Position numbers and translations under genes: made by a program. The notes beneath the pieces are model-generated. The model was given only the letters and a program-made list of their open reading frames with translations, had not been told where the DNA came from and did not search any database. Below, piece after piece: positions 2,659 to 19,090 of a stretch of DNA of 43,540 nucleotides. The stretch comes from an uncultured Ruminococcus sp. (GTDB lineage Bacteria > Bacillota > Clostridia > Oscillospirales > Acutalibacteraceae): assembly GCA_902802795.1 (NCBI GenBank), contig CADCNI010000004.1, positions 1 to 43,540 of the forward strand, in the 5' to 3' direction. Position 1 is the first letter of the stretch. Every line of letters begins with the position of its first letter.

Positions 2659-2676
2659 AAAAATGCTCCTTAAAAA

Positions 2677-3885
2677 TTATTCTTTTTCTACCGGCTCAAA
2701 AAAAGTATCGGGATGATTCGGGTCAAATGGCTCGTTTGCCCACATGACGGTGACAAGATTTTCGGTATCACTGAGGTTGATGATATTGTGGGTATATCCC
2801 GGCAGCATATGCACCGCTTGAATTTTGTCACCTGACACTTCAAATTCAATCACCTCATCGGTACCTATTTTGCGTTCCTGAATCAAACCGTGACCGGACA
2901 CAACAATGAAAAATTCCCACTTACTGTTGTGCCAATGCTGCCCTTTGGTAATGCCCGGCTTTGAGATATTCACTGAAACCTGACCGCAATTCGCCGTTTT
3001 AAGCAATTCGGTAAAACTCCCGCGGTCATCGGTATTCATCTTCAAATCAAAAACGACCTTGTCCTTCGGCAGATACGACAGATACATGGAATACAGTTTC
3101 TTTTCAAAGCTGTTCGGTGGAATTTCCGGCATAACCAACGTCTGCGGCTGATTGTGAAAAACTTCAAGAAGATCCACAATTCTGCCAAGCGTTGCCTGGT
3201 GTGTAACGGGTGCAGCACAATATTTTCCATCTGGCGTCAACACTGTTTTCACACCGTCAAATTCGCAGTGATGTTCTTTACCTTCAAGCGCATCAAGCAT
3301 TTCCTCCACCAAATCGTCAATAAAAAGCATTTCCAGCTCCAAATTCGGGTCATTGACTGTAATCGGCAAATCATGGGCAATATTGTGACAGAAGGTTCCC
3401 ACCGCACTATTGTAATTAGGACGCACCCATTTACCCACTAAATTAGGAAATCGGTAAACCAACACTCTCGCACCTGTTTGGGCGGCATAGGCAAAGAATA
3501 AATCTTCGCCCGCTTTCTTGGAAAGACCATATTCCGATGTGCCAAAGCGCCCCTGTAAGGTGGCTTGAATAGAACTGGCAAGCATAACAGGGCAGGTGTT
3601 GCTGTGATTTTTTAGCATATCCAGCAATGTCAAGGCGAAGCCATAATTTCCCTTTTTAAAGTCCTCCGGATTTTTGGGACGGTTTACGCCGGCAAAGTTA
3701 AAAACAAAATCTGCTTTGGAGCAGTATTCGTCCAGTTCGTCCAGAGTGGAATTAATGTCGTATTCATAAATCTCGTCAATGATAAGATGGGGACGGGTGC
3801 GATTTTTCCCGTCCCTGATGGATTTGAGATTTTCGGTTAAATTGCGACCCGCGAACCCTGCCGCGCCGGTAATCAAGATGTTCAT
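2677..3885 (-). CDS. capF: CapF/FnlB-type bifunctional epimerase-reductase
   Basis: This is the second enzyme of UDP-L-FucNAc synthesis, which epimerises C3 and then reduces the C4 keto group of the CapE product with NADPH. The 402-residue protein has two modules. The first is an SDR domain with GAAGFAG at 7-13 and the catalytic YGLSK at 119-123. The second is a C-terminal cupin of about 110 residues with metal ligands in GQHWHN (His317, His319), nearby Glu324 and His366 (PGYTH). This SDR-cupin fusion is specific to CapF/FnlB. The ATG has GGGAGG about 8 bases upstream, and the gene lies 24 bases after capE. Confidence 0.92.
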   Translation of the reverse strand: MNILITGAAGFAGRNLTENLKSIRDGKNRTRPHLIIDEIYEYDINSTLDELDEYCSKADFVFNFAGVNRPKNPEDFKKGNYGFALTLLDMLKNHSNTCPVMLASSIQATLQGRFGTSEYGLSKKAGEDLFFAYAAQTGARVLVYRFPNLVGKWVRPNYNSAVGTFCHNIAHDLPITVNDPNLELEMLFIDDLVEEMLDALEGKEHHCEFDGVKTVLTPDGKYCAAPVTHQATLGRIVDLLEVFHNQPQTLVMPEIPPNSFEKKLYSMYLSYLPKDKVVFDLKMNTDDRGSFTELLKTANCGQVSVNISKPGITKGQHWHNSKWEFFIVVSGHGLIQERKIGTDEVIEFEVSGDKIQAVHMLPGYTHNIINLSDTENLVTVMWANEPFDPNHPDTFFEPVEKE

Positions 3886-3909
3886 TTGCGTTTCCTCCCG
3901 AATGCGGCA

Positions 3910-4953
3910 TTACTTGCGGATTAATGCAAGCTGTTCCTGCACATAATCAGTCGTAAGGATTTTTTTGACTGTACCTTCCACATCAAGCCGATTGGTATTG
4001 TGACTGTTATAGCTCTCGTTGGCCTGTGTTTCCACCTTTCCTTTGATGAAATACTGGTCGTAGTTCAAATCGCGGTTGTCGGCCGCAACGCGGAAATAAT
4101 TGCCCATATCCTCCGCGCGCAGACGTTCTTCTTTTGTCATGAGGGTTTCATAAAGTTTCTCGCCGTGGCGGGTACCGATAATATTGGTTCCCGTGTTACC
4201 AAAGAGCTGCTGCACCGCTTTTGCCAGATCGCCAATCGTGCTTGCGTCTGCCTTCTGAATGAACAGGTCGCCGGGGTTGGCGTGTTCAAAAGCAAATCTG
4301 ACCAGATCCACCGCTTCGTCCAGATTCATCAGGAAGCGTGTCATTTCAGGGTTGGTAATGGTGATGGGATTGCCGGCTTTGATCTGATCGACGAACAACG
4401 GAATGACCGAACCACGGCTGCACATGACATTTCCATAACGGGTACAGGAAATCACCGTACCGCCGCGTTCTGCCGCAACGCGTGCATTCGCGTAAATCAC
4501 GTGTTCCATCATGGCTTTTGAAATACCCATCGCGTTGATGGGATAGGCCGCTTTATCCGTGCTCAGGCAGACGACTCTCTTTACACCCGCGTCAATCGCA
4601 GCGTGAAGCACGTTGTCAGTACCCTCCACGTTGGTTTTGACCGCCTGCATGGGGAAAAATTCGCAGGACGGCACCTGCTTCAGAGCCGCAGCGTGGAATA
4701 TATAATCCACTCCCGGCATGGCGTCTGCCACCGAACGAGGATCACGGACATTGCCAACGTAAAACTTGACCTTGCCCGCATAATCGGGGAAACGCGCCTG
4801 CAAATCGTGACGCATATCGTCCTGTTTTTTTTCGTCGCGGCTGAATATGCGGATTTGTCCGATATCTGACTGCAAGAAATGTTTGAGAACAGTGTTACCA
4901 AAACTGCCTGTACCGCCTGTGATCATAAGTGTTGCACCGTTAAATGTACTCAT
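3910..4953 (-). CDS. capE: UDP-GlcNAc 4,6-dehydratase/5-epimerase, CapE/FnlA-type
   Basis: This enzyme commits UDP-GlcNAc to the L-FucNAc pathway, forming the 4-keto-6-deoxy L-arabino-hexulose. The 347-residue SDR protein has GGTGSFG at residues 13-19. In the active-site segment, MGISK at 142-146 carries methionine where other SDR enzymes have the catalytic tyrosine, as in CapE and PseB relatives. The start has GAGG upstream with normal spacing. Its product could also be a substrate for the DegT aminotransferase at the head of the operon (compare PseB-PseC), which would make it a branch point. That second use is inference. Confidence 0.92.
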   Translation of the reverse strand: MSTFNGATLMITGGTGSFGNTVLKHFLQSDIGQIRIFSRDEKKQDDMRHDLQARFPDYAGKVKFYVGNVRDPRSVADAMPGVDYIFHAAALKQVPSCEFFPMQAVKTNVEGTDNVLHAAIDAGVKRVVCLSTDKAAYPINAMGISKAMMEHVIYANARVAAERGGTVISCTRYGNVMCSRGSVIPLFVDQIKAGNPITITNPEMTRFLMNLDEAVDLVRFAFEHANPGDLFIQKADASTIGDLAKAVQQLFGNTGTNIIGTRHGEKLYETLMTKEERLRAEDMGNYFRVAADNRDLNYDQYFIKGKVETQANESYNSHNTNRLDVEGTVKKILTTDYVQEQLALIRK

Positions 4954-5030: not shown

Positions 5031-6494
5031 TTAGACTTGTGCCTTCTTTCGTTTTATTATTGAAGAAAAGACCGATTTAAATTCACTTTTTATGTTAATT
5101 ACTTTAAATTTAACTCCCAAAAGACTAACAATAGCTAAATATATGCCTCCACCAACACACATTTCAATGATAAGTTTATAAACAGAAGCCAAATCAATTA
5201 TTTTATTTAATAAATAAACAGAGCTATACATTATTACGCCCGACACTATAAAAATTAATGAATCTTTAAGAAATGGTATGACATTAAGTTCTTTTCTAAG
5301 TTTTAGTGTACTGTATATACAATTAAGCGCCTCTGAAAGCAGTGAAGCAATGGCTACACCAAATGTACCAAACCAGCGGACAGCAACTAAACTGATCAGA
5401 ATATTTATCAAAGAAGCAAAAACAACAGATTTCGTGTATATTTTGTCATAGCCTGACGGAAGCATATACTGTGTCCTTATTACATTTCCCCATCCTATAA
5501 AAATCAGCATAAAAGCAAGAATTGACAAAAGACCAACTGATTCATCAAACCCCGGTCCTAAATACAATGGCATAAAAACATCAGAAACCGAGGATAATCC
5601 AAAAGCTATAGCGGAAGTACACATAATAACGACAGACATAGATTTTCTCATGTATTTTTGACTCTCGCTCTTTTTTCCGTCGGCTATCAATTTGGTTATT
5701 CGTGGCATCATTACGTTCCCTATGGCGGTAACAAATACAACAGGTACTTTTGCAATTTTATAAGCATTTTCATAATATCCCACATGCTTTACATCCAATA
5801 CGGAGCCAATGATCGTTTTATCAACTATGGAAAAAATCTGTGTAGATAATACAGGTATGAATAATTGGAGTAACGGAAAAATTCTTTTTTTAATGTTCTT
5901 AATTTCAAGATGAACAAATATTGTGGATTTCTTAACTTCAAGCCACATCGACAGAGCACCTATTAAATTACTTATTGCCATTATAAATACATAAATAAAT
6001 GCGTCGTCATAATCGTGTATTAGGCTGAATACTAATATTATTTCTAAAAGTCTGACAATGATATTTCTGATTACTACGGATTTAAATCTTTCCAATCCAA
6101 AAAGAAACCAACTAATATCAAAAAGACCAACTAATAGTTCTAGTGCCTGAATGGTAAGTGCTTTCTTGGTTGCTTCGTCTTGCACGCCTAATACAATAAA
6201 AACGATATAAGAAAACAATACAATAAAAAACAGTAGTAACTGAATAAGCCAGATTTCCCAAAATGTAGTTGAAAATTTTTTTTGGTTGTCATTTACTTTC
6301 GCTATTTCACGTTTACCATATAATTTTACACCTAGCTGAATAAAAATCACAAAGTAAAGACATATTGAATAGCTATATGAATATAACCCGACGCCGGAAG
6401 CTCCCAGTTTTCTAGACAGATATGGTGTCAGTAATAGCGGCACAATCAAACCGAGTATTTCATACGCGATCATTAATATACTATTTTTTTTCAT
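5031..6494 (-). CDS. wzx: Wzx-type polysaccharide flippase
   Basis: This is a polytopic membrane protein of the MOP superfamily, predicted to flip undecaprenyl-linked repeat units to the outer membrane face. The 487 residues contain roughly 12-14 hydrophobic helices. The N-terminus (ILMIAYEILGLIVPLLLTPY) and the segment VFVTAIGNVMMPRITKL are typical of the RfbX/Wzx group. The gene is distinctly AT-rich compared with capE and ugd, like the next genes upstream in the operon. The ribosome site is weak (AGAGAG). The substrate cannot be read from the sequence. Confidence 0.85.
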   Translation of the reverse strand: MKKNSILMIAYEILGLIVPLLLTPYLSRKLGASGVGLYSYSYSICLYFVIFIQLGVKLYGKREIAKVNDNQKKFSTTFWEIWLIQLLLFFIVLFSYIVFIVLGVQDEATKKALTIQALELLVGLFDISWFLFGLERFKSVVIRNIIVRLLEIILVFSLIHDYDDAFIYVFIMAISNLIGALSMWLEVKKSTIFVHLEIKNIKKRIFPLLQLFIPVLSTQIFSIVDKTIIGSVLDVKHVGYYENAYKIAKVPVVFVTAIGNVMMPRITKLIADGKKSESQKYMRKSMSVVIMCTSAIAFGLSSVSDVFMPLYLGPGFDESVGLLSILAFMLIFIGWGNVIRTQYMLPSGYDKIYTKSVVFASLINILISLVAVRWFGTFGVAIASLLSEALNCIYSTLKLRKELNVIPFLKDSLIFIVSGVIMYSSVYLLNKIIDLASVYKLIIEMCVGGGIYLAIVSLLGVKFKVINIKSEFKSVFSSIIKRKKAQV

Positions 6495-6528: not shown

Positions 6529-7578
6529 TTACTGTATGCATTCAGAAATAATAGCCTGTATATATTTTTTTGAATCGCTGATAGTCTGATTCAAAAGCGT
6601 TTTATCATTTTTACTCTTTATACGCTCATTATCTTTGATACCGGCAAGAGCCAATAAAGTGTCAATTCTTCCACCTCTGCCATTATTTAAAGGAATATAT
6701 ACTAGATCTCTATCAAAAACAACACTGAATGCCAATGCATGAAACGAATTCGAAATGATACATTGCGCATGTGCAATCAATCCTAAATATTGCTCGGGCG
6801 TAGCAGACTTGTAATGTATATCGGCCTTATAAATATTATTGAAACTGCCAATAGAAATGATTTTTGCATCAGGATATATTTTCTTTACTCTGTTAATTGC
6901 ATTAGTAACCATATTCACATCTGTTTCAAGTGTATACACTAGTATATAGTTCTTATATTCAGGCAATTCAGCTATTTTTAAATAATCTGTTTTATCAAGT
7001 AAAAAAACAGGGTCAACATTCAGGTAAATGTTTCCAACACCTGATTTTTTTAATGAATCATATAACTGTAGTTCTCTAACGCCAACTTTGCTAAAATGTT
7101 TTAATTTTTCTTTGATCTCCAAACAGCACTTTTCATCTTTGTCATTATTCCCCATACTTGCAGCATAACTATATTTATACGGAGAAGCTGAGAAAGATAA
7201 AAAGTAGACATCATCGAAGTTATTACCTGTGATGTTCTTATTCCAGACTTGGTCGCTTCCCACAATAAACACCGCTGGTTGCTCTAACTCAGCGTTATGA
7301 AAATCAATCATCCTTATTCTTGAATTGATAAAAGCGTTAAAACCTGATGCCCTTTTTTTTCTCGAAGGATAGGCAATAACATTGTGTAAAACCCATTTCA
7401 CAAAGTTTTCATTATCTCTTCTATGAATTAATTTTGGAACCAAAAAATCAGGCCGATAATCAAGACAAAATACGTCCTCATCTGGTACTGTGTTTTTTAT
7501 GTACCTTTGCAGTGCATATGCCTGCAAAACCGCTCCATAATTATGTGCTGCGTGAAATGTAACAGTAATAATTTTCAT
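6529..7578 (-). CDS. Polysaccharide pyruvyl transferase family protein
   Basis: The 349-residue protein begins with a hallmark of this family, NYGAVLQAYALQ near residues 13-24. Later it has FIVGSDQVWN near 105 and a C-terminal GLIAHAQCIISNSFHALAF segment, both typical of CsaB-like GT-B-fold enzymes. Members attach pyruvate ketals from phosphoenolpyruvate to sugars, or in some cases act as glycosyltransferases. The ATG overlaps the stop of the upstream gene by four bases (ATGA), so the pair is translationally coupled. The precise acceptor is unknown. Confidence 0.8.
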   Translation of the reverse strand: MKIITVTFHAAHNYGAVLQAYALQRYIKNTVPDEDVFCLDYRPDFLVPKLIHRRDNENFVKWVLHNVIAYPSRKKRASGFNAFINSRIRMIDFHNAELEQPAVFIVGSDQVWNKNITGNNFDDVYFLSFSASPYKYSYAASMGNNDKDEKCCLEIKEKLKHFSKVGVRELQLYDSLKKSGVGNIYLNVDPVFLLDKTDYLKIAELPEYKNYILVYTLETDVNMVTNAINRVKKIYPDAKIISIGSFNNIYKADIHYKSATPEQYLGLIAHAQCIISNSFHALAFSVVFDRDLVYIPLNNGRGGRIDTLLALAGIKDNERIKSKNDKTLLNQTISDSKKYIQAIISECIQ

Positions 7579-8513
7579 GTTAGCATCTCCTTAACTGAAT
7601 CTCCGTATTTTCTCATTATACAATTCAACTGTTCGTCATTTTTATTCTGAAGGACATTGACAAGTGATAGTCCATCTTTTTCTGAGCCTTGTACTGATAA
7701 AAAGGTATAACTATATCGGCTGCCTCTGACAACCATTGTGTTTTTCAGCAAACTCATAATTTTGAGCCACAAATCATCTGCCTTAAGGCAATTTTCTACA
7801 ATGAAATCTTTATCAAACACATCCTCATAAAGACAATGAGGGGGATATAAAACGCCGCCAACGCCGATAGGACACAAAAATAGAGACGGGCCTATTTCAT
7901 CTGTTGAATGAATCCAATCTGAATAACTTTTAATATTTCCAAGTGAATCCGTAGTCATGTAGTGCGCCGTTGTACAGCAGATGCAACCGGGATTATTATC
8001 CGAGAGATTTACCAGTTCTTCCAGCCAATCTGATGGATAAAACACATCATCGTCCACCGTAACTACCGTAGCATCAGGATAGGCTCTCATCGTCTCAAAA
8101 TATTTTTTATGCGGCTTCAAATCCTCGCAAAAACGTACTTCAAACCACTTGATATTTTCCACTCGCTCAACAATTTCTTTGGACAGTTCATCTAATTTAC
8201 CTGTATACTCATCTTCTGAAAGCCAGAGAATCACCTTTTCAGGCTTAACTGTCTGTAAGAAAAGACTATCTAGAGTCATATGTACTCTATTGGTTCTGCT
8301 TCCATAAGTTGTCAACGATATAATCAGGTGATTCGTACCGTTTTTCAACTCTTTCATTTTCTCTTTGCTAAGCGGTTTATAGCGAAAATTGGCTATTTTT
8401 GAAAAAAAACGATACAAGGCTCCTTTTATTCCTTTTACATTATATAAATTCATTTTTCTCAAGATTTTAAGAACACTTTGCAAACAGCGGTAGTATTTGT
8501 CATGAGAATACAT
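7575..8513 (-). CDS. GT2/GT-A-like glycosyltransferase
   Basis: The 312-residue protein is predicted to be a GT-A-fold transferase. It has a first beta strand LIISLTTYGSR near residues 63-73, an NTP-binding region, and a DDD metal-binding triad at 154-156 (VTVDDDVFYP). A late KADDLWLKIMSL motif resembles the acceptor-side aspartates of similar capsule transferases. It probably adds one sugar of the repeat unit on the cytoplasmic membrane face. It is coupled to the pyruvyl-transferase gene by a four-base overlap and is AT-rich like its neighbours. Confidence 0.72.
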   Translation of the reverse strand: MYSHDKYYRCLQSVLKILRKMNLYNVKGIKGALYRFFSKIANFRYKPLSKEKMKELKNGTNHLIISLTTYGSRTNRVHMTLDSLFLQTVKPEKVILWLSEDEYTGKLDELSKEIVERVENIKWFEVRFCEDLKPHKKYFETMRAYPDATVVTVDDDVFYPSDWLEELVNLSDNNPGCICCTTAHYMTTDSLGNIKSYSDWIHSTDEIGPSLFLCPIGVGGVLYPPHCLYEDVFDKDFIVENCLKADDLWLKIMSLLKNTMVVRGSRYSYTFLSVQGSEKDGLSLVNVLQNKNDEQLNCIMRKYGDSVKEMLT

Positions 8514-8530
8514 TATATCACGTCTTTCAG

Positions 8531-9793
8531 TTATTTAAGATGGTTATTTATATTAACTATATTTTGCTTAGGTAATCTGTAGCACAAATAAAACGATGAA
8601 TACCAAAAAATAAAATCTGAATAGTTAAGAATTCTCGCATGTTGTTGAATAATCAACGGAAAACAGCACCAAAATAAAAATACTATCATCTGGTCATAAT
8701 ATTTAAATTGCTCTTTTGATTTTATGATTATCATAGAGTTTCTTAACGCTTTCAAAACAACATATATTTCCACAATTACAAAAAAGATACCATAAGTTGT
8801 TGCGTTTTTCAGAATTCCTATTTCTGATGTAGCGCCTAAAAGCCTCCCCATTTCATAAGATATGGATACAGGTCCATATCCTATAATCGGATGAGTGACA
8901 AAAAGATTCCAGTAATATTCCCATAATCCAAATCTGCCATTCAGGATTACCGATACTGTATTGCTGTTAATAGAAGATTGATTTAATAGAAAGAAATCAG
9001 ATATTATATCAAAGCCAAATATTACAATACACAAAAAAGCCCCAAAACCAAATAATTTTTTTACATTAAAATCTTGTTCCAACCATGTTACAAACAGGCA
9101 AATCATAAACAATAACGCTTGTGTACGTGTTGCAGTTGACAATGTGATGATGACCGAAATGATTGTAATTATAAATAAAAGTTTTGATTTATTTTTTAGC
9201 AAATCATTAATACAAGAAAAAATAACCAAAAACACTGGTACAGAAAAAAGGCTCCAGATGGTAACTTCTCCTCTGCTTTTTCTTGAAAACTCAAAATAAA
9301 TGATCCCATATTTTCCACTTGCCAAATAAACTAAAATCAGACCTATCATCATTAATGCCATCATTATATATGACATTGCTTTATAATCATAGTCAAATTG
9401 GGATGTATTGTTCCTTTGTATATCTCCATCTCTTATCGAAAGATAGCAAACAAATAAAATTACAAGTAAGTCATAAACGTAAGTCTTAGCACTTTCAAAT
9501 AATCGTGAATTGATGATTCCCGATAATAAAATAATAAATGCAAATAACCATCCAACATTTAACTTGATAGTATACTTACTTTTGTGAAAATCTATAAGAT
9601 AAACTACTATTACTGAAAAAAGGAGTAAAAAGGCAGGATTAAGAGTGAAGGTGGTACTGTTTACATACATACCCACCTTGCCGGAATGCAGTGCTGAATA
9701 TGGACTAGGAGTTAAAGCACAATTTATAAGCATTAAAATAATATAAATAACTGAAAAAACGAAAAAAGAGGATTTATTTTTTACTATCTTCAT
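8531..9793 (-). CDS. wzy: Wzy-like polysaccharide polymerase
   Basis: The 420-residue protein is almost wholly hydrophobic, with about 10-12 predicted membrane helices. A large external loop near the C-terminal third contains NGRFGLWEYYWNLF followed by THPIIGYGP, the pattern typical of the O-antigen ligase/polymerase (Wzy/WaaL) superfamily. In a locus with Wzx and an initiating transferase, it is best read as the polymerase that links repeat units outside the membrane. The ribosome site is weak (GGTGAG). Sequence divergence is normal for this family, so the call rests on topology, loop motif and context. Confidence 0.8.
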   Translation of the reverse strand: MKIVKNKSSFFVFSVIYIILMLINCALTPSPYSALHSGKVGMYVNSTTFTLNPAFLLLFSVIVVYLIDFHKSKYTIKLNVGWLFAFIILLSGIINSRLFESAKTYVYDLLVILFVCYLSIRDGDIQRNNTSQFDYDYKAMSYIMMALMMIGLILVYLASGKYGIIYFEFSRKSRGEVTIWSLFSVPVFLVIFSCINDLLKNKSKLLFIITIISVIITLSTATRTQALLFMICLFVTWLEQDFNVKKLFGFGAFLCIVIFGFDIISDFFLLNQSSINSNTVSVILNGRFGLWEYYWNLFVTHPIIGYGPVSISYEMGRLLGATSEIGILKNATTYGIFFVIVEIYVVLKALRNSMIIIKSKEQFKYYDQMIVFLFWCCFPLIIQQHARILNYSDFIFWYSSFYLCYRLPKQNIVNINNHLK

Positions 9794-9908: not shown

Positions 9909-11033
9909 TCACATTGCGAAAAACATTGCTTCATAATCCGTCTTTAACTGACTAATGTCGAGTTTAAAGTCTATATAACAAGCTAATTGATCGCAAAATT
10001 CTGCATATGCTTCTGATGACATATCCACCAATTGCTGTATTCCTTTTGTCCACATTGCATTTTCGGTTAGAGGGATGGTGTAGCCGCCATTTTGGTCAAC
10101 ATCATCCCAAGGCGTAGTTCCTCTGCTGATAATAATCGGACAGCATGAAATCATGGCCTCCGCAATCACATGACCGTAATTTTCGCTCAAGGTAGGAAAC
10201 AAAAATGCGTCATATCGGCTGAACACCTCATGAACTTGCTCATGAGAAACCAATCCGCAGTATTTCACATGAATATGATCCGGCAGCTTCTTGATTTCTT
10301 CCTCACATTCCTGCCAGTATGCCTCATCTTCAATAGGTCCATATATATCAAAGATAACTTGTCCCTGAACAGTATGAAAATATCGGATGGCACTTAAAAG
10401 ATTCTTCTTGGGATGAATACGCGACAAAAAAACAAAGCGTCCTTCACCCGCCTGTTTGACACGTCGGGGATATTCTTTGCTAGGAATGGACGGAATATTA
10501 TCAAGCATGTGAATCTTATCATCGGAGACTTTCAGCCATTTTTTGATTGCCTCTGTTTCTTCCTCACTGGTCGATTGAAAGTGAAGATTCCGTGTCAGTC
10601 CAAGTGCTTTTATCAAATAAATATAAGGAACCTTTTTTTGTTTTTTCAAATGCAAGGCACCCGCACAAAGTTCCCCTCTGGGTGCAAGCAATACTTTCAA
10701 ATGACGCTTTTTGGCAAGCTGCAAACAGGGGAACACACAGGATTGAAAAAGCCCTTGCATATAAAGAACGTCCGGCTTTATCTCCTCCATTACTTTTTTA
10801 AAAGTGCGTTTATTATATTCCGAATCACTCAGGTAGAGAACCTTACAATTTCCTCGGTCATTCCATCCATCATCAATATTGGAATATTTTTCTGTTTCAA
10901 ACAGATCATGATTATGGGTCACGATGTAACACGCATACTCTTTCATTAAAGAACAGAAATTATCAATACTGACAGGCGGACCTCCGTATTTCTTGCCGGG
11001 AAAAAAACCGCCCATTACGATAAGGATTTTCAT
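9909..11033 (-). CDS. Glycosyltransferase family 4
   Basis: This is a GT-B-fold retaining transferase of about 374 residues. The N-terminal domain starts MKILIVMGGFFPGKKYGGPP with the usual glycine-rich acceptor loop. The C-terminal nucleotide-sugar domain has FVFLSRIHPKKN and the EX7E-type segment SENYGHVIAEAM. The frame is open to 11063, but the ATG at 11033 is preferred because AAAGGA lies 8-10 bases upstream and the protein then starts at the first beta strand. The start is two bases from the TGA of the preceding gene. The sugar donor is unknown. Confidence 0.85.
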   Translation of the reverse strand: MKILIVMGGFFPGKKYGGPPVSIDNFCSLMKEYACYIVTHNHDLFETEKYSNIDDGWNDRGNCKVLYLSDSEYNKRTFKKVMEEIKPDVLYMQGLFQSCVFPCLQLAKKRHLKVLLAPRGELCAGALHLKKQKKVPYIYLIKALGLTRNLHFQSTSEEETEAIKKWLKVSDDKIHMLDNIPSIPSKEYPRRVKQAGEGRFVFLSRIHPKKNLLSAIRYFHTVQGQVIFDIYGPIEDEAYWQECEEEIKKLPDHIHVKYCGLVSHEQVHEVFSRYDAFLFPTLSENYGHVIAEAMISCCPIIISRGTTPWDDVDQNGGYTIPLTENAMWTKGIQQLVDMSSEAYAEFCDQLACYIDFKLDISQLKTDYEAMFFAM

Positions 11034-11034
11034 G

Positions 11035-12246
11035 TCAATTCGATCCTTTCTGTATGATTTCATATGCCATCTCGGTCGTGTAATGCGCAGTCAGATACTC
11101 ATAGGCCCTTTTGCCAAGATTGGTCATATCAAATTGAATGGCTTCATCAATCCGCGCCATAAAAGCCTCTGTAGAATTGCTTTCGCACCACCAACCGAAA
11201 CCGCCTTCCTCGATCACCTTGCCGATATCGGTGTTAGGATCCGTGCAGGCCAGCACGGGTAGTTTTGCCTGCATATATGCCAGCAATCTGCTGGGAAAAT
11301 TGGGAATGGTAAATCTGTGATCAAGAAAAATCATGCCAACGTCGCATGCCGCGACCATCGTGTCATAATCTTCCTTTGGCAGCCGCTTCATTAATTTCAA
11401 ATTCGACTGATTAGCGGTTTGCACATAATCCTCCAGCAGTCCGTACTCGGTGCCGTCACCCACAATCAAGAAAAATGCCTCGTCAATCTCTTTCGCCTTC
11501 TTCATGCATTCCAACAGGAAAGGAATCCCCTGCGGCTTTCCAAGATTGCCTCCGTAAACAAACACTTTTTTATCAAGCGGTATGCCATACTTGTTTCGGA
11601 TGGCGATCCGCGTTTCTTTGTCAACGCTCTTATCGACTACTTCAATGCTGTTAGGGCATATTTCCACAATGGCAGGATCTATTTCAGGATTGTGCTCAAT
11701 CACATAATCGACATTCGCCTGAGACATACATCCGATTACGTCGGAATTTCGATACAGTTTCTTTTCCTGACGGCGAAAATGCCTGTACAATATACCTTTC
11801 AGACCACTTGTCGTCATCATACCAATATCGACCGCGTTCTGTGGAAAAATGTCTTTGAGCAAAAGGTAGGTTTTGGCACGATCGCGTTGCTTGACATATT
11901 CAATCGCACCTACAAAAGTGATAGGAGGCGTCGAATATAAAACCAAATCGAACTTTACATCCGAAAAGTATTTCTTGATACCGCTCTTAAACGTCGGCTC
12001 AATCAACACTGTCGAGATTCCCTTTTCAATAATGTTGGTCTTTTGTGTGTTGCCAATTTGCAGTTTGAGAATCGTTATGCCGTCCTCTTTCACCAAATGC
12101 GTTTTCTGCTGCTTTCTTTTTTCCACAGGAGATATGGCAAACATCTGATGACCGTTTTTGACAAATTCCCGCAGCAGGTCCGTATAGATACTTCTCTCCT
12201 GCAACGATTCAAAATCCAGCAGCGTCAAAAACAATACATTCATCAT
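11035..12246 (-). CDS. GT4 glycosyltransferase, WbuB/CapL-like (candidate L-FucNAc transferase)
   Basis: This is a GT-B-fold enzyme of about 403 residues. It resembles WbuB-type transferases: an N-terminal strand VLFLTLLDFESLQERSIY, a middle YSTPPITFVG segment, GCMSQANVDYV, and late VFVYGGNLGKPQG, PNFPSRLLAYMQAKLPVL and TDIGKVIEEGGFG. WbuB relatives transfer L-FucNAc, which fits the capEFG genes in this operon, so that donor is a reasonable inference. The frame is open to 12291, but the ATG at 12246 has AAGGGGA just upstream. The tandem ATG at 12243 is an alternative. Confidence 0.82.
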   Translation of the reverse strand: MMNVLFLTLLDFESLQERSIYTDLLREFVKNGHQMFAISPVEKRKQQKTHLVKEDGITILKLQIGNTQKTNIIEKGISTVLIEPTFKSGIKKYFSDVKFDLVLYSTPPITFVGAIEYVKQRDRAKTYLLLKDIFPQNAVDIGMMTTSGLKGILYRHFRRQEKKLYRNSDVIGCMSQANVDYVIEHNPEIDPAIVEICPNSIEVVDKSVDKETRIAIRNKYGIPLDKKVFVYGGNLGKPQGIPFLLECMKKAKEIDEAFFLIVGDGTEYGLLEDYVQTANQSNLKLMKRLPKEDYDTMVAACDVGMIFLDHRFTIPNFPSRLLAYMQAKLPVLACTDPNTDIGKVIEEGGFGWWCESNSTEAFMARIDEAIQFDMTNLGKRAYEYLTAHYTTEMAYEIIQKGSN

Positions 12247-12277
12247 AACATCCCCTTCATATGAAATATTAGGACTT

Positions 12278-13528
12278 TTATCTGTCCACACCCACTACAA
12301 ATACATAATTCGTGGTTGCACTGCCGCCGATATTAAGCATCATCGCGTTTCTCACGCCATGAATCTGATATCTGCCCGCCGTACCTGTTACCTGCTTATA
12401 TAAATCCAAAAACATTCTTGCTCCTGACGCACCAACAGGGTGTCCGCAGCCAATCAGACCTCCGCTCGGATTAATGGGTTTCTTTCCGTCAAAAGAGATC
12501 AAACCGCTTTCCACCGCTTCATACTCTCTGCTCGGCTCCGTCAATCCAAACGAAGAAATAGCGGCATACTCGCTTGATGTGAAGCAATCATGGGTTTCAA
12601 ACACATCCATATCATCCACCGTCAAACCACTTCTTTTGTAAGCGTCCACAACAGCCTGCCTTGTCCACGGCAGAATAAAAGCGGACGCGGCGTTATCCGC
12701 CATTTTCTTTTCAAACAACATGGGAGCAACGCGATGACCATAGCCTTTTATGACAGGCTTTTCCTTAATGCCGCGTTCTTTCATGAATTTTTCCGAGGCA
12801 AGGACCACAACGGCAGCTCCGTCAGTCACCTGAGAGCAATCCGAAACCGCGAGTTTGCCACCGACAAGCGGATTGGTCTCCGTCCCTCTTGTACTGGCCT
12901 GCTCATAACTCATAAACCATTTTCTGGTCTGCGCCATGGGATTTCTTTTTCCGTTAGAATAGTTAATCGCGGAAATAGAAGCCAACGCATCCATATAGCG
13001 TTTTTCCTCTATCGGATATTTTTTCAGTGTTTCATCCGCCAGTTTTCCAAAGAGTTTTGGAAAAGGAAAATCAATATCCTTTCCCTCCTTCTCGTAAAAA
13101 GCAGCCCTTCCCAGAAAATCTCCGCCCGTTTTGGAGTCAACCGTTTTCATCAATTCCCAACCGACCACAATCGCTACATCATAATCGCCCGACTTGATTT
13201 TGGTTTGTGCTGCATCAATGGCTACAGAGCTTGAAGCACACGCTGCTTCATAACGGGCAGATGGCACTCCGTAAAATGCTGCATTAACCTCTGTCATAAA
13301 GGCACCGAGATGTCCCTGCTCTGTGTACTTTTCAGCAATAAAATTTCCCACAAAACAGGCAACCCGGTTGTCTTTGTTCAATTCTTTAATATCATCAAAT
13401 GTAATATCAGCATTCGCAAGACCGTCAGTCACCGCTTCCTTGAGCAAAGCAACCATGTTCTTGCCTTCCTTTTTCCAGTTGCGCTCAAAATCGGTCTGTG
13501 CGCCGCCAAGAATATATACTTTACTCAT
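12278..13528 (-). CDS. Thiolase family protein (acetyl-CoA acetyltransferase type)
   Basis: The 416-residue protein is a full-length thiolase of the SCP-x/archaeal-like branch. It has the nucleophilic Cys97 in EAACASSS, His313 in [10 protein letters not shown], and the C-terminal [17 protein letters not shown] with Cys361 and His363. Thiolases either split 3-ketoacyl-CoA or condense two acyl-CoA units. Here the gene sits inside a capsule operon directly after a 3-hydroxyacyl-CoA dehydrogenase and a sugar acyltransferase. No enoyl-CoA hydratase or acyl-CoA dehydrogenase is nearby. Fatty-acid breakdown is therefore unlikely, and condensation to acetoacetyl-CoA is the favoured inference. Confidence 0.88.
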
Positions 13529-13540
13529 TCACGCACTTCC

Positions 13541-14863
13541 TTACTTTCCTGATTTGAAATATAATCTGTAGTCGTACCGAGAAGGCTTTATATCAGCCAA
13601 TAAACCATCTATATCTATTTTCCCACGGATATCAGTCAGTCTTTCTTTTATCAGAGTTTTTACATCAGATACAGAGGAAAGCGCCTGATACATCGCCAGC
13701 GGAGGACACCAATTAAAGCCTGTGGCCATTACATCGTCGGCTGCTTCAATTGTATAACCTACTTCCTTTGCGGCATACAATGAATAAACAATATATTTCA
13801 GCAGGAATGAAAGACATATCTCGGCTTCAAGTGAATGATTATTGACCAACTGATCAAATGCTTTTATATATTCACCCTCAGCGATGTACTTTTTCATGTT
13901 ATCAGCAAATGGAAATACGTATGGGATCCTGTCACGATACATTCCTGTGTTAATATCCAAAACGGTGGGACGTTTCAATCCGTTATCGTATCTCACCAGT
14001 TTATACAGCCCTTCTCCCGACTTTCGTCCCAGCTTTTTTTCATCAATCAGCTTTTGAACATATTGCGGGAGAATAAATGTCTCATGAGCATAATCGTCCG
14101 TATTTTGATAGATATTGTCTACAATTGCTTTGTGAACGTCCAAACCCACAAAATCAGAAGTGTTCAAAGGCGCCATGGAACGCCCTGTGAAAGAACCAAG
14201 AATTGCGTCAATATAATCTATTCCGCCGTTATCTTTGTATGTTTCCGCATATTGAAGCGCCTCATTGATAAACTGAAACCCGATTCTGTTTCCAAGAAAC
14301 GCCGGAGAATCCTTAACCTCGACGACCGTTCTTAAGAGCGTCCTGTCAAGATAATCCTTTAACTCATCCGCTAATTCTTTTTCCGAATATTTAGTTTCAA
14401 TCAATTCGCAAAGAGACATACTGTAAGGCGGATTGAACATATGCACGCCAAAGAATCGACTGCGCAGATCCTCAGGATAACATTCCGCCAATGCTGTCAC
14501 CGAAAGACCAGATGTTCCTGTGCAGGAAACCGCGTCAGATTTCAAAGCCTTACCAATTCTTGCGGCCGTTTCGGTTTTTACATGAATGTTTTCGGCACAA
14601 CTTTCAAATACCAAATCCGAATCGGCTACACATTGCTCCAACATGGTAAAATCGGCAGGAATTAAATTTTTTGCGATGCTGTCCGCTTTGACAGATTTGA
14701 CAGTTCTCGGTATGGTTCTTTTCACCTTTTCGATGTCTCTGCCAATCATATACACTTTTGCGCCGCCGAATGACGCAAAGATACCTGCAATGTTCGCGCC
14801 CATCGTTCCGGTTGCGCCAACCACGGTTACAGTTTTAATATTCAATGTCTCATCCTCACTCAA
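13541..14863 (-). CDS. 3-hydroxyacyl-CoA dehydrogenase
   Basis: This NAD(P)-dependent enzyme interconverts 3-ketoacyl-CoA and 3-hydroxyacyl-CoA. It has a Rossmann motif VGATGTMG near residues 15-22, VFESCAENIHVK at 85-96, the catalytic His141-Glu153 pair (GVHMFNPP and CELIE), and Asn192 in FLGNR. At up to 440 residues it is longer than the usual 280-residue form because a second C-terminal 3HCDH-like segment follows. No ATG is available: the frame opens with TTG at 14861-14863, overlapping the upstream gene by eight bases. A second TTG at 14843-14845 has GAGG upstream and gives a protein starting just before the Rossmann strand, so it may be the real start. Confidence 0.87.
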   Translation of the reverse strand: MSEDETLNIKTVTVVGATGTMGANIAGIFASFGGAKVYMIGRDIEKVKRTIPRTVKSVKADSIAKNLIPADFTMLEQCVADSDLVFESCAENIHVKTETAARIGKALKSDAVSCTGTSGLSVTALAECYPEDLRSRFFGVHMFNPPYSMSLCELIETKYSEKELADELKDYLDRTLLRTVVEVKDSPAFLGNRIGFQFINEALQYAETYKDNGGIDYIDAILGSFTGRSMAPLNTSDFVGLDVHKAIVDNIYQNTDDYAHETFILPQYVQKLIDEKKLGRKSGEGLYKLVRYDNGLKRPTVLDINTGMYRDRIPYVFPFADNMKKYIAEGEYIKAFDQLVNNHSLEAEICLSFLLKYIVYSLYAAKEVGYTIEAADDVMATGFNWCPPLAMYQALSSVSDVKTLIKERLTDIRGKIDIDGLLADIKPSRYDYRLYFKSGK

Positions 14864-15503
14864 AATATTTTATCGGTTTAGCCGGACTTCCTACTGCTGT
14901 GCATTTGGCAGGAATATCTTTCACAACGACTGCTCCCGCACCGATAATCGAATAATCACCAACAGTTTTTCCCTGAATTATTTGCATACCTGTTCCCAGT
15001 TCGCTTCCATATCCAATATGTGTCATACCGGATACATTCACACTAGGATACAGCGTTACAAAATCCTTTAAAATCGCGTCATGTCCAACGGTGCAGTCGA
15101 GATTCATAATGACATGATTTCCTATTTGGATATTGGTAGTCAAGATCGTATGGGCACAGATAATCGTTCCTTCGCCAAGCTCTACAAAATCCGATAAAAG
15201 AACGCTGGGATCCACAAGCGTGGCAAATCTGACAGCAGGGTTCTTTGCTTTGATTTTAGTGATAATGTTTTCTCTTGTTTTTGACGCTCCGACAGCACAA
15301 ACAAAATATGCTTGCATATAATCGGGAACCACATTGGTTGTGCCAATTACAGGATATCCATTAATGGATTTTCCCTGTATTTCACTGTTGTCATCTATGA
15401 ACCCCAAAAGATTCCATGTGCCGTTCACAGCATTGATACGTTCTACCAGCCACGCAACCTCTCGGCCAAATCCACTCGCGCCAATAATGATTAAATCTTT
15501 CAT
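14856..15503 (-). CDS. NeuD/PglD-family sugar N-acyltransferase
   Basis: The 215-residue protein has the two-part NeuD/PglD layout. A small Rossmann-like N-terminal domain (LIIIGASGFGREV, then a GFIDD motif) binds the UDP-sugar. A left-handed beta-helix of hexapeptide repeats follows (for example VELGEGTIICAHTI and IQIGNHVIMNLDC), with the catalytic base His141 in TVGHD. PglD acetylates the 4-amino group of UDP-4-amino sugars with acetyl-CoA. Its position just before genes for 3-hydroxyacyl-CoA metabolism suggests that the donor here may be a longer hydroxyacyl-CoA. That donor is inference, and plain acetyl-CoA remains possible. Confidence 0.85.
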   Translation of the reverse strand: MKDLIIIGASGFGREVAWLVERINAVNGTWNLLGFIDDNSEIQGKSINGYPVIGTTNVVPDYMQAYFVCAVGASKTRENIITKIKAKNPAVRFATLVDPSVLLSDFVELGEGTIICAHTILTTNIQIGNHVIMNLDCTVGHDAILKDFVTLYPSVNVSGMTHIGYGSELGTGMQIIQGKTVGDYSIIGAGAVVVKDIPAKCTAVGSPAKPIKYFE

Positions 15504-15588: not shown

Positions 15589-16260
15589 CTATCTGTCTGC
15601 TATGATTTCTCTGATCAGATTAAATGATTCTGCTGCATTTACTCCAACCGTTGTTCCCCTGTATATAGCCAGTGCTTCAACAGCTTTAATGGATCGGGCA
15701 TTGGGATAAACCGCGATCTGAGATTGAAAATATGACAACGCTTTCAGTTTTGTCTCTAAAAACCCGCTTATATCGTTGTAAACATTTGGAATGAACTCAT
15801 TTACAGTATTAGGTATATCCCATCCTGTTTCCGATACCGTCTCATAAGCGTATATCTTGCTTACCAGATGCTCATATTTAGGGCGTAATGCCACCATAGC
15901 AGCGTCTACTGTCATTTTATGATCTAACTGCATATCTCCCCGATGTGGAAGATATACCACCTCAGGCCTTATTTTCTGTATCAGTTTAATCAACGTCTCA
16001 TTCAATTCATGACGAGGAACTTCTTCCATCCTCGCCGCGGGAAAATCCAAGAAGATAGTCTCTTTGACGCCAAGAAATGAATCCGCTTTACGACATTCGG
16101 CTCTTCCCTGCTCAATCAATTCAGCGGGAAACATTGGCGATGTTCCTTTTGTAACAACAGCCACAAAAACATCATCTCCAAAAGCCGCATGTTTTGCGAT
16201 TGTACCGCCACAGCCTAAGATTTCATCATCCGGATGAGGAGCAATTACTAATATATTCAT
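15589..16260 (-). CDS. PIG-L/LmbE family N-deacetylase
   Basis: This is a zinc-dependent deacetylase of 223 residues, similar in length to BshB and LmbE proteins. It has the family signature APHPDDE (His9, Asp11, Asp12, Glu13) and the second metal motif HRGDMQLDH with His106, Asp109, Asp113 and His114. Members remove acetyl from N-acetyl amino sugars. Next to the formyltransferase it probably frees an amine so that another acyl or formyl group can be placed on the same sugar. The order of these steps is inferred. The start is five bases from the formyltransferase stop, which implies coupling. Confidence 0.88.
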   Translation of the reverse strand: MNILVIAPHPDDEILGCGGTIAKHAAFGDDVFVAVVTKGTSPMFPAELIEQGRAECRKADSFLGVKETIFLDFPAARMEEVPRHELNETLIKLIQKIRPEVVYLPHRGDMQLDHKMTVDAAMVALRPKYEHLVSKIYAYETVSETGWDIPNTVNEFIPNVYNDISGFLETKLKALSYFQSQIAVYPNARSIKAVEALAIYRGTTVGVNAAESFNLIREIIADR

Positions 16261-16264
16261 ATCA

Positions 16265-17164
16265 TCACCTCAACTTATGACCGACAAACATTTTTACACC
16301 ATCTACGTTTTCAAAGTCCGTTACGTGAAGTAGTCCGTCTTTGCAAACTATATCCATATAATCTGATCCGATTTCTGCTATCTGGCCATTCATACCTACA
16401 TACTTTTGATTCTCTTGCACATCTGCTCTCCAAATAATGAGCTGATGGGTACCATCATACATACCAAATGCTCCCGGAAAAGGCCGTGAAACTGCCCTGA
16501 TTAAACGATGAATCTCTTTGACCGAATCATTCCAATCAATCAATCCGTCTTCGGGGGAGCGTTTCAGCAAAAAGGTTGCTTCCTCCTCGTTTTGCTTTAC
16601 AGGGTTCAGTGTTCCTTCCATAGCCTGTTGCAACACTCTTTTGGCCAAACGGTATGTTGCGTCTTCTATTTTTCGATATACATCCTCTGCGTAATCCGTA
16701 TCTTCTATGATATACTCTTCCTGACCCAAAATATCCCCGCTGTCCATTCCGTCATCAATAAAGAACATGGAACATTTTGTTTCATGCACCCCCAGCAAAA
16801 CCTGCCATACATTCGCTGCTCGACCTCTCATTTTGGGAAGCGGAGTAGGATGAAACCCTACCACTCCTAATTTTGCGCTATCAATAATTTCCCGCTTTAC
16901 CAATTGAGAAAAACCAATGACAAAAATATAGTCAGGATTTATTTTTTGAATGATGGATACGTTTTCCGGATCATTAATTCTGTGAATCTTGGTAAACGGA
17001 ATACCGTGCGCTTCGGCAATCTTATGAATCGGTTGATATCCGGAAATATTCTTTGAATATTCTTCATCAATTGAGAATACATGTGATACCGGAAAATTTA
17101 CATCGAGCATTGCCTCAAGCATTTTTTTACTTGAACCAACGGAACCAATTAAAACAGATTTCAT
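16265..17164 (-). CDS. Formyltransferase family protein (sugar N-formyltransferase candidate)
   Basis: The 299-residue protein has a Fmt/ArnA-like N10-formyltetrahydrofolate-dependent domain with GFHPTPLPKMRG at 103-114 and the catalytic aspartate Asp141 in MDSGDIL. The C-terminal part, from about residue 210, has the small beta-barrel seen in Fmt and ArnA. The usual catalytic Asn of the NxH motif is replaced by Gly103 (GFH), while His105 and Asp141 remain. Its operon place between an initiating transferase and a deacetylase argues for a sugar amine substrate and against initiator tRNA. Confidence 0.82.
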   Translation of the reverse strand: MKSVLIGSVGSSKKMLEAMLDVNFPVSHVFSIDEEYSKNISGYQPIHKIAEAHGIPFTKIHRINDPENVSIIQKINPDYIFVIGFSQLVKREIIDSAKLGVVGFHPTPLPKMRGRAANVWQVLLGVHETKCSMFFIDDGMDSGDILGQEEYIIEDTDYAEDVYRKIEDATYRLAKRVLQQAMEGTLNPVKQNEEEATFLLKRSPEDGLIDWNDSVKEIHRLIRAVSRPFPGAFGMYDGTHQLIIWRADVQENQKYVGMNGQIAEIGSDYMDIVCKDGLLHVTDFENVDGVKMFVGHKLR

Positions 17165-17166
17165 TT

Positions 17167-17796
17167 TTATACTTCCTCCGATTTCTTTTCTGCCAGTATT
17201 CCCATGAATTCGCTATTAGTAGCTTCACCGGGTTCATTGATTCCCTCGCGTTTGAAAACAATCGCAATCGTCCAAAAGATAATTTTTAAATCCATCAAAA
17301 AAGAAATATTATCTACATACTTAATATCCAACTCAAATTTCTTATCCCATCCCGCCGAATTTCTCACCGTGGCCATAGCCAATCCGGTCAGACCCGGTCT
17401 GACCTCGTGCCTTCTATGCTGCTCCGGAGTATAGCGATCAAGATATTTTACCAACAACGGTCGGGGACCGACAATTGACATATCACCTTTGAGAATATTG
17501 ATTAATTCAGGAAGTTCATCCAAAGAAGCAGATCGAATGAATAATCCATATCGTTTCAAACGCATATGATCAGGAAGGAGATTTCCGTCTTTATCTTTTT
17601 CATTGGTCATGGAACGGAATTTTATCAGTTTAAAAATTTTTTCATTTCGTCCCGGTCGCTCTTGTGTGAAGAAGGGATTTCCCTGCATCTGAATCGCTCC
17701 TATCACTGTCAGAAGCAACAAAACAGGAGAGAGAATAATGAGTGCCAGCAGACTCAAAATAAAATCGAGTGGTCGCTTGAAAAATTTAGCGTACAT
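17167..17796 (-). CDS. Initiating sugar-phosphate transferase, PglC/WcaJ-type
   Basis: This is a polyprenyl-phosphate phosphoglycosyl transferase of about 209 residues, the small monotopic form. A single N-terminal membrane-embedded helix (residues about 10-35) is followed by KFRSM (59-63), the catalytic Asp93-Glu94 pair in LDELPELIN and GDMSIVGPRP. It starts repeat-unit assembly by moving a sugar-1-phosphate from a UDP-sugar onto undecaprenyl phosphate. The frame is open to 17847 inside the aminotransferase gene, but the ATG at 17796 has a GGGGG site 8 bases upstream. An amino-modified sugar is a likely substrate given the aminotransferase and acyltransferase beside it. Confidence 0.9.
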   Translation of the reverse strand: MYAKFFKRPLDFILSLLALIILSPVLLLLTVIGAIQMQGNPFFTQERPGRNEKIFKLIKFRSMTNEKDKDGNLLPDHMRLKRYGLFIRSASLDELPELINILKGDMSIVGPRPLLVKYLDRYTPEQHRRHEVRPGLTGLAMATVRNSAGWDKKFELDIKYVDNISFLMDLKIIFWTIAIVFKREGINEPGEATNSEFMGILAEKKSEEV

Positions 17797-17818
17797 AAAC
17801 AAAGCCCCCGTTGATGAA

Positions 17819-19090
17819 TTATGCAAAACATTCGTGAATAACAGCAACGATTCTGTCCACCTGTTCCGATGTCATCTTGTTATCGGAAGGCAGACACAGA
17901 CCGCGTTCAAAGATATCCGCGCCTACGTCAACAAAGCCGTTTTCCTTTATGTAGGCATTGCTCCTTGCCCGTCCGTTGCCGCTTGCCGTGATAAAGGGAT
18001 TCATGCGGTAAATCGGCTGCATATGCATGGGCTTCCAAATCGGACGCCCTTCGGCGTTATATCTCGCCAGTGCTTCCAGAATTTCTGTAGGGCATGACTT
18101 GCCGGGCTCACTGATATAAAGAGCCTCCTTTTCACCGCGCACCTGCTTACTCATGGCGCATTGCTCAATCAGCAAGCAGGACAACCAATAATTCGGTTGA
18201 CTGATTGCGGAGTCAAATGGATTCAACGTAACAGGCAAATCTTTCAACCCTTCACGGTATCTATCATAGATTGCCTTTTTCTGTGCGATGTGCTCTTCCA
18301 AATACGGAAGCTGTCCACGCACAACACCCGCAATAATATTGCTCATGCGGTAGTTATAACCGAGTTCCTCATGCTGGTACCATGACGCGTCCTCGCGGCT
18401 TTGTGTGGACCATTTGCGAACCTTGTGCGCCCACTCTTCGCTGTCGGTCAGCAGCATACCTCCACTGGAACCAGTGATGATTTTGTTGCCATTGTAGCTG
18501 ATGATGGACACATCCCCAAAGCATCCTGTTTGTACCTCTTTGTAAGAAGCACCAAAAGATTCCGCCGCGTCCTCCACCATCAAAGCGTTGTGCTTATCGC
18601 AGACAGAACGGATTTCATCCATTTTGGCGGGCGTTCCATAAAGGTGAACCAACACAACCAAACGCACATCAGGATAAATTTCAAAGGCCTTTTCCAATGC
18701 CGCCGGATCCATATTCCAGGTATCTCGTTCGGTATCAATAAAAACAGCCTCACCGCCCTCGTACGCCACGGGATTGACCGTCGCGTCAAAGGTCATATCG
18801 GAGCAAAAGACCTTATGTCCCTCCAAAGAACCGTGACCTACTTTCGGCTGACCATATATTTTTTCTCCGCACAGCTTGATGGCCAAATGCAGCGCCGCCG
18901 TTCCCGAAGAAAGGGCAACCGCATATTTTCGACCGATTTTTTCGGCGGTCATGCGTTCCACTTCATTGATATTCGCTCCCACCGTGCTGACCCAATTGGT
19001 CAAAATCGCCTCATCCACCCACTTCTGCTCGTCGCCGTGCATGGTGGGAGACGAAAGCCATATTTTATTTGTAAACGGTTTGATTTCCAT
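17819..19090 (-). CDS. DegT/DnrJ/EryC1 aminotransferase
   Basis: This PLP-dependent sugar aminotransferase of 423 residues is the first gene of the capsule operon. It has SSGTAALHLA (61-70), the cofactor-contacting Asp174 in VEDAAESFG, and the PLP lysine Lys203 in SYNGNKIITG. It transfers an amino group from glutamate to a 4-keto nucleotide sugar, as PglE or PseC do. No PglF-type retaining dehydratase is in this window, so its keto-sugar could come from CapE or from a gene elsewhere. The start has AAGGAAA upstream. Confidence 0.9.
   Translation of the reverse strand: MEIKPFTNKIWLSSPTMHGDEQKWVDEAILTNWVSTVGANINEVERMTAEKIGRKYAVALSSGTAALHLAIKLCGEKIYGQPKVGHGSLEGHKVFCSDMTFDATVNPVAYEGGEAVFIDTERDTWNMDPAALEKAFEIYPDVRLVVLVHLYGTPAKMDEIRSVCDKHNALMVEDAAESFGASYKEVQTGCFGDVSIISYNGNKIITGSSGGMLLTDSEEWAHKVRKWSTQSREDASWYQHEELGYNYRMSNIIAGVVRGQLPYLEEHIAQKKAIYDRYREGLKDLPVTLNPFDSAISQPNYWLSCLLIEQCAMSKQVRGEKEALYISEPGKSCPTEILEALARYNAEGRPIWKPMHMQPIYRMNPFITASGNGRARSNAYIKENGFVDVGADIFERGLCLPSDNKMTSEQVDRIVAVIHECFA

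Follow-up and report, generated by a model that had tools for sequence, protein, structure and literature searches.

The window analysed here is a stretch of 43,540 nucleotides from an uncultured Ruminococcus sp., and it carries three complete, adjoining open reading frames (ORFs) on its minus strand, predicted to encode a sugar N-acyltransferase and two enzymes of acyl-coenzyme A (acyl-CoA) chemistry. The subject of this work is the latter two, a thiolase and a dehydrogenase, as a candidate local source of the acyl donor for the former. The three genes are as follows:

14856..15503, minus strand: PglD/NeuD/VioB-type sugar N-acyltransferase (NeuD), 215 amino acids (aa); NCBIfam TIGR03570, scoring 207.5 bits (cut-off 160.8)
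13541..14863, minus strand: 3-hydroxyacyl-CoA dehydrogenase (3HCDH), ORF of 440 aa; Pfam PF02737 and PF00725, both over cut-off
12278..13528, minus strand: SCP2-type thiolase, 416 aa; NF004936 (PRK06289), 572.2 bits against a cut-off of 375

A preceding sequence-only reading had described three tightly packed neighbours of these families at this position within a 17-gene polysaccharide operon. The ORFs and profile scores confirmed the trio, and, judged by these profiles, the family assignments can be regarded as secure. The operon was confirmed as well: 17 genes run on one strand from 19090 to 215, tightly packed, with the widest gap of about 115 bases. The nearest solved chain to the window NeuD was VioB 7txp (E 2.2e-39), and that to the thiolase was 4bi9 (E 7.5e-55), which we take to be a trypanosomatid SCP2-thiolase-like protein. 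The dehydrogenase resembled the L-3-hydroxyacyl-CoA dehydrogenase 3hdh (E 3.1e-30); a Staphylococcus FadB model spanned its residues 8-414 with a score well under the cut-off of that model, and its final 150 residues were without Pfam match. Its true start is probably the TTG codon at 14845, giving 434 aa, since GAGG precedes this codon and many relatives are 434-435 aa long.

A single scan, covering 84,980 species genomes, was used to collect related loci and returned 61; its seeds were peptides of the window thiolase, so that distant relatives are under-sampled. Three loci from whole-genome searches (L020-L022) were added and four were dropped: L068 and L074, which coincide in position with L021 and L022; L083, at 28% identity; and L082, where a thiolase fragment stands without a recognised 3HCDH. 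This resulted in 60 loci for comparison. In all 56 cases where the thiolase gene had an upstream gene, a 3HCDH gene stood directly upstream on the same strand; this count leaves aside four thiolases at contig edges and, for L052, where the thiolase is split, its second fragment. Given this linkage across dozens of genomes, together with acyltransferase flanking above control (see below), chance adjacency of the pair was ruled out. It should be added that the dehydrogenase frame of L027 and the thiolase frame of L052 were split in their assemblies, through either sequencing error or decay.

The carriers were mostly Bacillota, with further records named Bacteroidota, Planctomycetota and Verrucomicrobiota; many carrier records are metagenome-assembled genomes (MAGs), in which misbinning could have occurred. 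Cultured carriers include Oceanobacillus rekensis PT-11 (L048) and Anaerocolumna sedimenticola CBA3638 (L067), each with a PglD-type partner. In the family of the host the thiolase was rare, with 13 of 150 genomes matching at E <= 0.001 and at least 68% identity reached only in the host, G053 and G096. Across the phylum, 4 of 398 genomes matched at E <= 1e-60, these being the host and three others at 35-38% identity. All 1,200 matching plasmid records were below 60% identity (at most 40% among the 10 listed), as were all 25 matching phage records, none of which covered 80% of the query; with all these matches below 60%, nothing pointed to an origin on a plasmid or phage. Resolvase-type serine recombinase genes were seen near the pair at L020:14844-15467, L056:5820-6482 and L063:11412-12074 (Pfam-checked for L020 only), and such recombinases might switch or move pair loci. 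One Bacteroidales MAG has a crotonase gene directly upstream of the pair (L054:7937-8698), and some modules, cf. this one, may make a different acyl group.

Sugar N-acyltransferase-type partners (ACYLTRANSFERASE) were present in 46 of the 60 loci, at a distance from the thiolase of up to four genes on the upstream and three on the downstream side. Assigned via sequence clusters with tested representatives, they comprised PglD (17 loci), QdtC (13), LpxD-like (11), GNAT (4; L024, L045, L032 and L034) and other hexapeptide (3) types, with two types together in two loci. As to the earlier suggestion to look for the same trio in other loci, the PglD type itself accompanies the pair in 17 loci, and other families do so elsewhere. 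The hexapeptide fold is common to the PglD, QdtC and LpxD types and differs from that of GNAT. The L025 partner matched QdtC itself (3fs8, E 1.2e-92), and the partners in L020 and L065 were nearest to LpxD structures (L020 against 3eh0, E 1.5e-31); all four LpxD-like proteins scanned scored below the curated LpxD cut-offs. Among ten neighbour proteins chosen by eye for Pfam scanning from loci without a NeuD-like neighbour, those of L056 and L070 had no Pfam match, and that of L028 was a nucleotidyltransferase.

A hexapeptide acyltransferase directly flanked the pair in 38/56 loci, as compared with 43/391 other same-strand gene pairs of the same loci, an effect size somewhat inflated by the derivation of the profiles from pair neighbours. 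Among the 50 loci with control pairs, 34 were flanked in this way, and the highest value of 20,000 draws was 15. On the thiolase tree, where 6 of 54 inner branches were strongly supported and some partner changes may be tree error, at least 18 changes of partner type were counted over the 42 labelled rows. The QdtC rows clustered (7 changes against a shuffled mean of 11.2, with 0/500 shuffles as low), and no clear clustering was seen on this tree for the PglD or LpxD rows. Furthermore, L023 with a PglD partner and L025 with a QdtC partner were well-supported sisters. From these partner changes, the donor pair rather than the transferase seems to be the shared element.

Residues named earlier as catalytic (His141 in NeuD, His141 and Glu153 in the dehydrogenase, Cys97 and His313 in the thiolase) were all present and conserved in relatives. 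Thiolases are marked by a nucleophilic Cys, an HDCF motif and a GHP His; among 57 thiolases, including that of the window, Cys97 and His363 were kept in 57/57 and His313 and Cys315 each in 56/57. Condensing or thiolytic activity is predicted, and membership in the family does not reveal which chain length the enzyme prefers. In the dehydrogenases His141, Glu153 and Asn192 were each kept in 54/54 sequences, the window's among them, and the glycine motif was GxxGxxG. Preference for NAD is associated with an acidic residue ending the second strand, which was found in none of the 54. Where the NAD enzyme 3hdh carries Asp, the window protein has Gly41-Arg42; position 41 was S, G, C or A and Arg42 was invariant across the 54 sequences. 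A small residue plus Arg in place of Asp is the usual mark of NADP(H) binding, and the enzyme is likely of NADPH type, which makes the reductive direction likelier. The L-3-hydroxyacyl-CoA dehydrogenase family gives (S)-products.

In the host genome, which is 98% complete, Thiolase_N matched two genes, each within a thiolase-3HCDH pair. The second, on contig C7, is 81% identical to the window thiolase, with its own adjoining 3HCDH (73%) and an LpxD-like partner directly downstream. PF02737 matched the two pair loci at 106 and 95 bits, and four further matches did not exceed 25 bits: the uridine diphosphate (UDP)-sugar dehydrogenase of the window, its 90% relative on C7 and, below cut-off, a frame of 455 aa on C18 and one of 470 aa on C10. 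Crotonase (PF00378) had no match in the host genome, as compared with matches in 13 of 14 control genomes, and on this ground a butyrate or beta-oxidation operon was ruled out. Among 50 other carrier genomes (completeness unstated; L026, L036, L049, L060, L068, L074, L078, L080, L081 and L082 left out), a further thiolase above 60 bits was present in 13 and not in 37, at a threshold that an additional SCP2-type thiolase could escape, as module thiolases themselves score 30-55 bits; other weak thiolase matches, mostly partial, are presumed to be ketoacyl synthases. Host contig C8 carries near its end (L132:6746-7869) an intact QdtC-type gene, which shares 76% identity with its counterpart in L025; behind it come the remains of a 3HCDH gene, interrupted by stops, and small ORFs running on to the contig end. 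The module is here present in the host a third time, in a decayed state.

The NeuD phylogeny, calculated after removal of six short or distant NeuD-like rows, placed 17 of the 18 pair-associated NeuDs in one 19-row clade (support 99/95) with two no-pair rows inside, and the window NeuD lay within a clade of mostly pair-associated NeuDs. The pair/no-pair label changed 4 times on this tree against a shuffle average of 14.6 (0/300 shuffles as low). His141 was kept in 18/18 pair-associated and 28/28 other rows. Gln174 and Ser154 each occurred in 16/18 pair rows, whereas other residues prevailed in the 28 no-pair rows; this comparison leaves out L106. With regard to acyl specificity, both the clade association and this signature are correlative and post hoc; the signature was picked from 215 columns of related sequences and serves as a lead only. 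The second NeuDs of L035, L046 and L078 were kept apart from the pair group, though that of L046 also flanks the pair; they group with PglB, as though one NeuD of these loci transferred hydroxyacyl and the other acetyl groups. Next to the window NeuD itself, the 29 highest-ranking NeuD matches among 398 phylum genomes (35-53% identity) had no pair within flanks of up to 1.5 kb, which says little, as the pair is rare in that sample.

The remaining genes of the operon were assigned as follows:

17819..19090, minus strand: DegT/PglE-like 4-aminotransferase, predicted maker of the 4-amino sugar acceptor (PF01041)
17167..17847, minus strand: phosphoglycosyltransferase, initiating sugar transferase (PF02397)
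16265..17164, minus strand: sugar formyltransferase-like protein (PF00551, PF02911; nearest solved chains ArnA)
15589..16260, minus strand: PIG-L type de-N-acetylase (PF02585)
11035..12291, minus strand: glycosyltransferase (PF00534)
9909..11063, minus strand: glycosyltransferase (PF00534)
8531..9793, minus strand: Wzy/O-antigen ligase-like polymerase (PF04932)
7575..8513, minus strand: weak glycosyltransferase family 2-like match (PF00535, slightly under cut-off)
6529..7578, minus strand: polysaccharide pyruvyl transferase (PF04230)
5031..6494, minus strand: Wzx-type flippase (PF01943)
1483..4953, minus strand: three CapE/CapF/CapG-like genes (PF02719 with PF08485, PF14667, PF02350)
215..1462, minus strand: UDP-sugar dehydrogenase (PF03721, PF00984, PF03720)

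The nearest solved chains to the DegT protein, 1o61 (E 2e-64) and 4ztc (E 1.3e-63), are both taken to be PglE, and the CapE/CapF/CapG-like trio resembles the UDP-L-FucNAc pathway. The label of capsule would follow from the Wzx, Wzy-like, phosphoglycosyltransferase and glycosyltransferase genes, and the operon may continue beyond the left contig end. For the PIG-L and formyltransferase-like proteins, one guess is deacetylation followed by formylation on another nitrogen. Neither acyl-carrier protein (ACP) nor ketoacyl-ACP synthase III (KAS III) of the viosamine-island kind (see below) was found among the 17 operon genes, with ORFs of at least 90 aa scanned. Elsewhere in the host, contig C71 carries what we take, from sequence, to be a PglF-like dehydratase adjoining LytR-type and chain-length/kinase-type genes. 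This dehydratase (L130:10140-12521) has an odd additional C-terminal stretch near the contig end, which may reflect an assembly break or recombination. Two short stretches of the window, 34640-34743 and 38357-38436, are shared with C71 at 95-96% identity and are probably dispersed repeats.

Taken together, we propose that the thiolase and 3HCDH act as a local acyl-donor cassette, from which 3-hydroxybutyryl would be placed onto a bacillosamine-type 4-amino sugar, and we give this reading a probability of roughly 0.7. The thiolase would condense two acetyl-CoA to acetoacetyl-CoA, and NADPH-dependent reduction of this by the dehydrogenase would yield 3-hydroxybutyryl-CoA, most probably as the (S)-isomer. 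The PglF-like dehydratase on C71 and the PglE-like DegT aminotransferase would make the UDP-linked bacillosamine-type sugar, the PglD-like NeuD would transfer 3-hydroxybutyryl to its 4-amino group, and the phosphoglycosyltransferase would begin the repeat unit after acylation. With NeuD acting as PglD, the route would be that of bacillosamine biosynthesis using another acyl donor, and its predicted product is 2-acetamido-4-[(S)-3-hydroxybutyramido]-2,4,6-trideoxyglucose. What we infer here is the nature of the acyl group and its stereochemistry, the cofactor, the acceptor, the sequence of the steps and the final polysaccharide. The donor-supply role put forward in the sequence-only reading was strengthened by the 56/56 linkage, by the excess of acyltransferase flanking, by the several acyltransferase families involved and by a host without thiolase outside the pairs; that the acyl group is 3-hydroxybutyryl, that it is transferred to the sugar, and the structure of the polysaccharide stay predictions.

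Beyond this locus, the chances appear about even that the pair serves as an acyl-donor cassette of general and portable use, recruited by several sugar N-acyltransferase families. It would then be the sole route to 3-hydroxybutyryl-CoA in many carriers, LpxD-like enzymes of Gram-positive bacteria would use a CoA-linked C4 donor rather than a long ACP-linked chain on lipid A, and one genome could place one and the same acyl group at different sugar positions on several surface glycans.

Local donor genes have precedents. In the anthrose operon of the Bacillus cereus group an acyl-CoA enzyme stands beside an aminotransferase and an N-acyltransferase; in contrast to the present pair, that enzyme is an enoyl-CoA hydratase, and the acyl group is methylated. 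The viosamine island of Pseudomonas syringae pv. tabaci is described in the relevant part of its report as vioA, vioM, vioT, vioS, vioB, vioR and acp, with donor-making genes adjoining the aminotransferase and 4-N-acyltransferase; its product is viosamine with 4-N-(3-hydroxy-1-oxobutyl), and the vioR mutant was without modified viosamine (PMC3927599). However, as presented there, that island employs ACP, KAS III and a 3-oxoacyl-ACP reductase instead of a CoA-type thiolase and 3HCDH, and it decorates flagellin in a Gram-negative bacterium (PMC3927599). The wfpC-G genes of Flavobacterium psychrophilum O-polysaccharide likewise combine local donor genes with a PglD homolog, for which the 4-amino group of UDP-Qui2NAc4N is the predicted site of acylation, whereas this system is ACP-based, with two ketoacyl synthases and 3,5-dihydroxyhexanoyl as product (PMC6519341). 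In Acinetobacter baumannii, the qhbCB/gdr genes are connected with capsular QuiNAc4N bearing 4-N-(S)-3-hydroxybutanoyl (QuiNAc4NHb), the same sugar as predicted here, but the gene list given there includes neither thiolase nor 3-hydroxyacyl-CoA dehydrogenase and names no source of the donor (PMC9676051). FdhC and QdhC are sugar N-acyltransferases that also place 3-hydroxybutanoyl, on Fuc3N and Qui3N; they differ in using the (R)-isomer and 3-amino sugars, local donor genes are not mentioned with them, and the word 'thiolase' is absent from both main texts (PMC4869667, PMC3726653). Finally, a gene annotated as 3-hydroxybutyryl-CoA dehydrogenase lies in the polysaccharide region of Vibrio cholerae O31 NRT36S, where it is a table entry with no donor role proposed and 'thiolase' is absent from the main text (PMC1847822).

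N-linked 3-hydroxybutyryl sugars with their transferases (PMC9676051, PMC4869667, PMC3726653), and in-locus donor genes in ACP form (PMC3927599, PMC6519341), are already known. The earlier view that self-contained donor supply would be unusual holds for CoA/thiolase chemistry, the principle itself having been published for ACP modules. A thiolase-dehydrogenase pair in a glycan locus was not found described in the open-access papers searched, most subscription papers being outside the search. A CoA-type thiolase with an NADPH-like dehydrogenase, common to several transferase families, would be new relative to the ACP modules.

Several points weigh against the donor-cassette proposal, in addition to the inflated flanking effect and the 60-bit threshold mentioned above. 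Fourteen of the 60 loci had no recognised acyltransferase nearby, several of these being cut short, and 16/60 had no homolog of the other glycan genes of the window, a crude test in which glycan genes unlike those of the window go uncounted (eight of the 16 span 12 kb or less). In L063 and L077 the pair stands within about 20 kb without a recognised glycan gene, and both hosts have other thiolases. Three no-pair NeuDs lie in or beside the pair-NeuD clade, namely L106:481-2166 (fused to NeuB, no pair in the examined flanks), L110 (clustered with a nucleotidyltransferase, a sugar dehydratase and DegT) and L125. Several solved NeuD relatives are named acetyltransferases, and the NeuD sequence alone does not fix the acyl specificity. 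Moreover, several other 3-hydroxybutanoyl sugars, on Fuc3N, Qui3N, pseudaminic and legionaminic acid, are reported to carry the (R)-isomer (PMC9676051, PMC4869667, PMC3726653), which counts against the proposal because an (S)-forming dehydrogenase would not supply the (R)-isomer.

An unlikely alternative, which nevertheless deserves consideration, is that the cassette supplies a different sugar N-acyl group, with another primer or a branched unit leading to a longer or branched 3-hydroxyacyl. The thiolase family is silent on chain length, the L054 pair has its upstream crotonase, and different in-locus modules do yield 3,5-dihydroxyhexanoyl (PMC6519341, in part); against this, one condensing and one reducing enzyme make the minimal C4 set, the 17 operon genes include neither a crotonase nor a second condensing enzyme, the genome is without crotonase match, and 3-hydroxybutanoyl is documented as N-acyl on such sugars in the pertinent part of PMC9676051. 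We find it distinctly improbable that NeuD is an ordinary acetyltransferase and that the pair serves general acetyl-CoA or butyrate-type metabolism, being in the operon by chance or hitchhiking. The acetyltransferase names and the L063 and L077 pairs would suit such a case, which is countered by the strong pair-acyltransferase link (38/56 against 43/391), the crotonase-free host, the clustering of 17/18 pair-associated NeuDs in one clade and the recurrence of the pair with several sugar N-acyltransferase families. An oxidative pair recycling 3-hydroxyacyl groups freed from the polysaccharide is very hard to credit: both families are reversible in beta-oxidation and a PIG-L de-N-acetylase lies within the operon, yet no acyl-CoA synthetase was found among the 17 scanned genes, and the NADPH-like signature and neighbouring biosynthetic transferases favour synthesis.

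If the donor-cassette proposal is true, such thiolases should not be annotated as butyrate or lipid metabolism genes, and every partner enzyme would represent a testable case of acyl specificity. In genomes of uncultured bacteria, the pair would mark the presence of 3-hydroxyacylated glycans. Furthermore, many Clostridia, among them several whose record titles point to gut and rumen samples, and some relatives would make surface sugars with N-linked 3-hydroxybutyryl, and would possess a dedicated donor route even where, as in the host, neither a crotonase nor another thiolase is seen.

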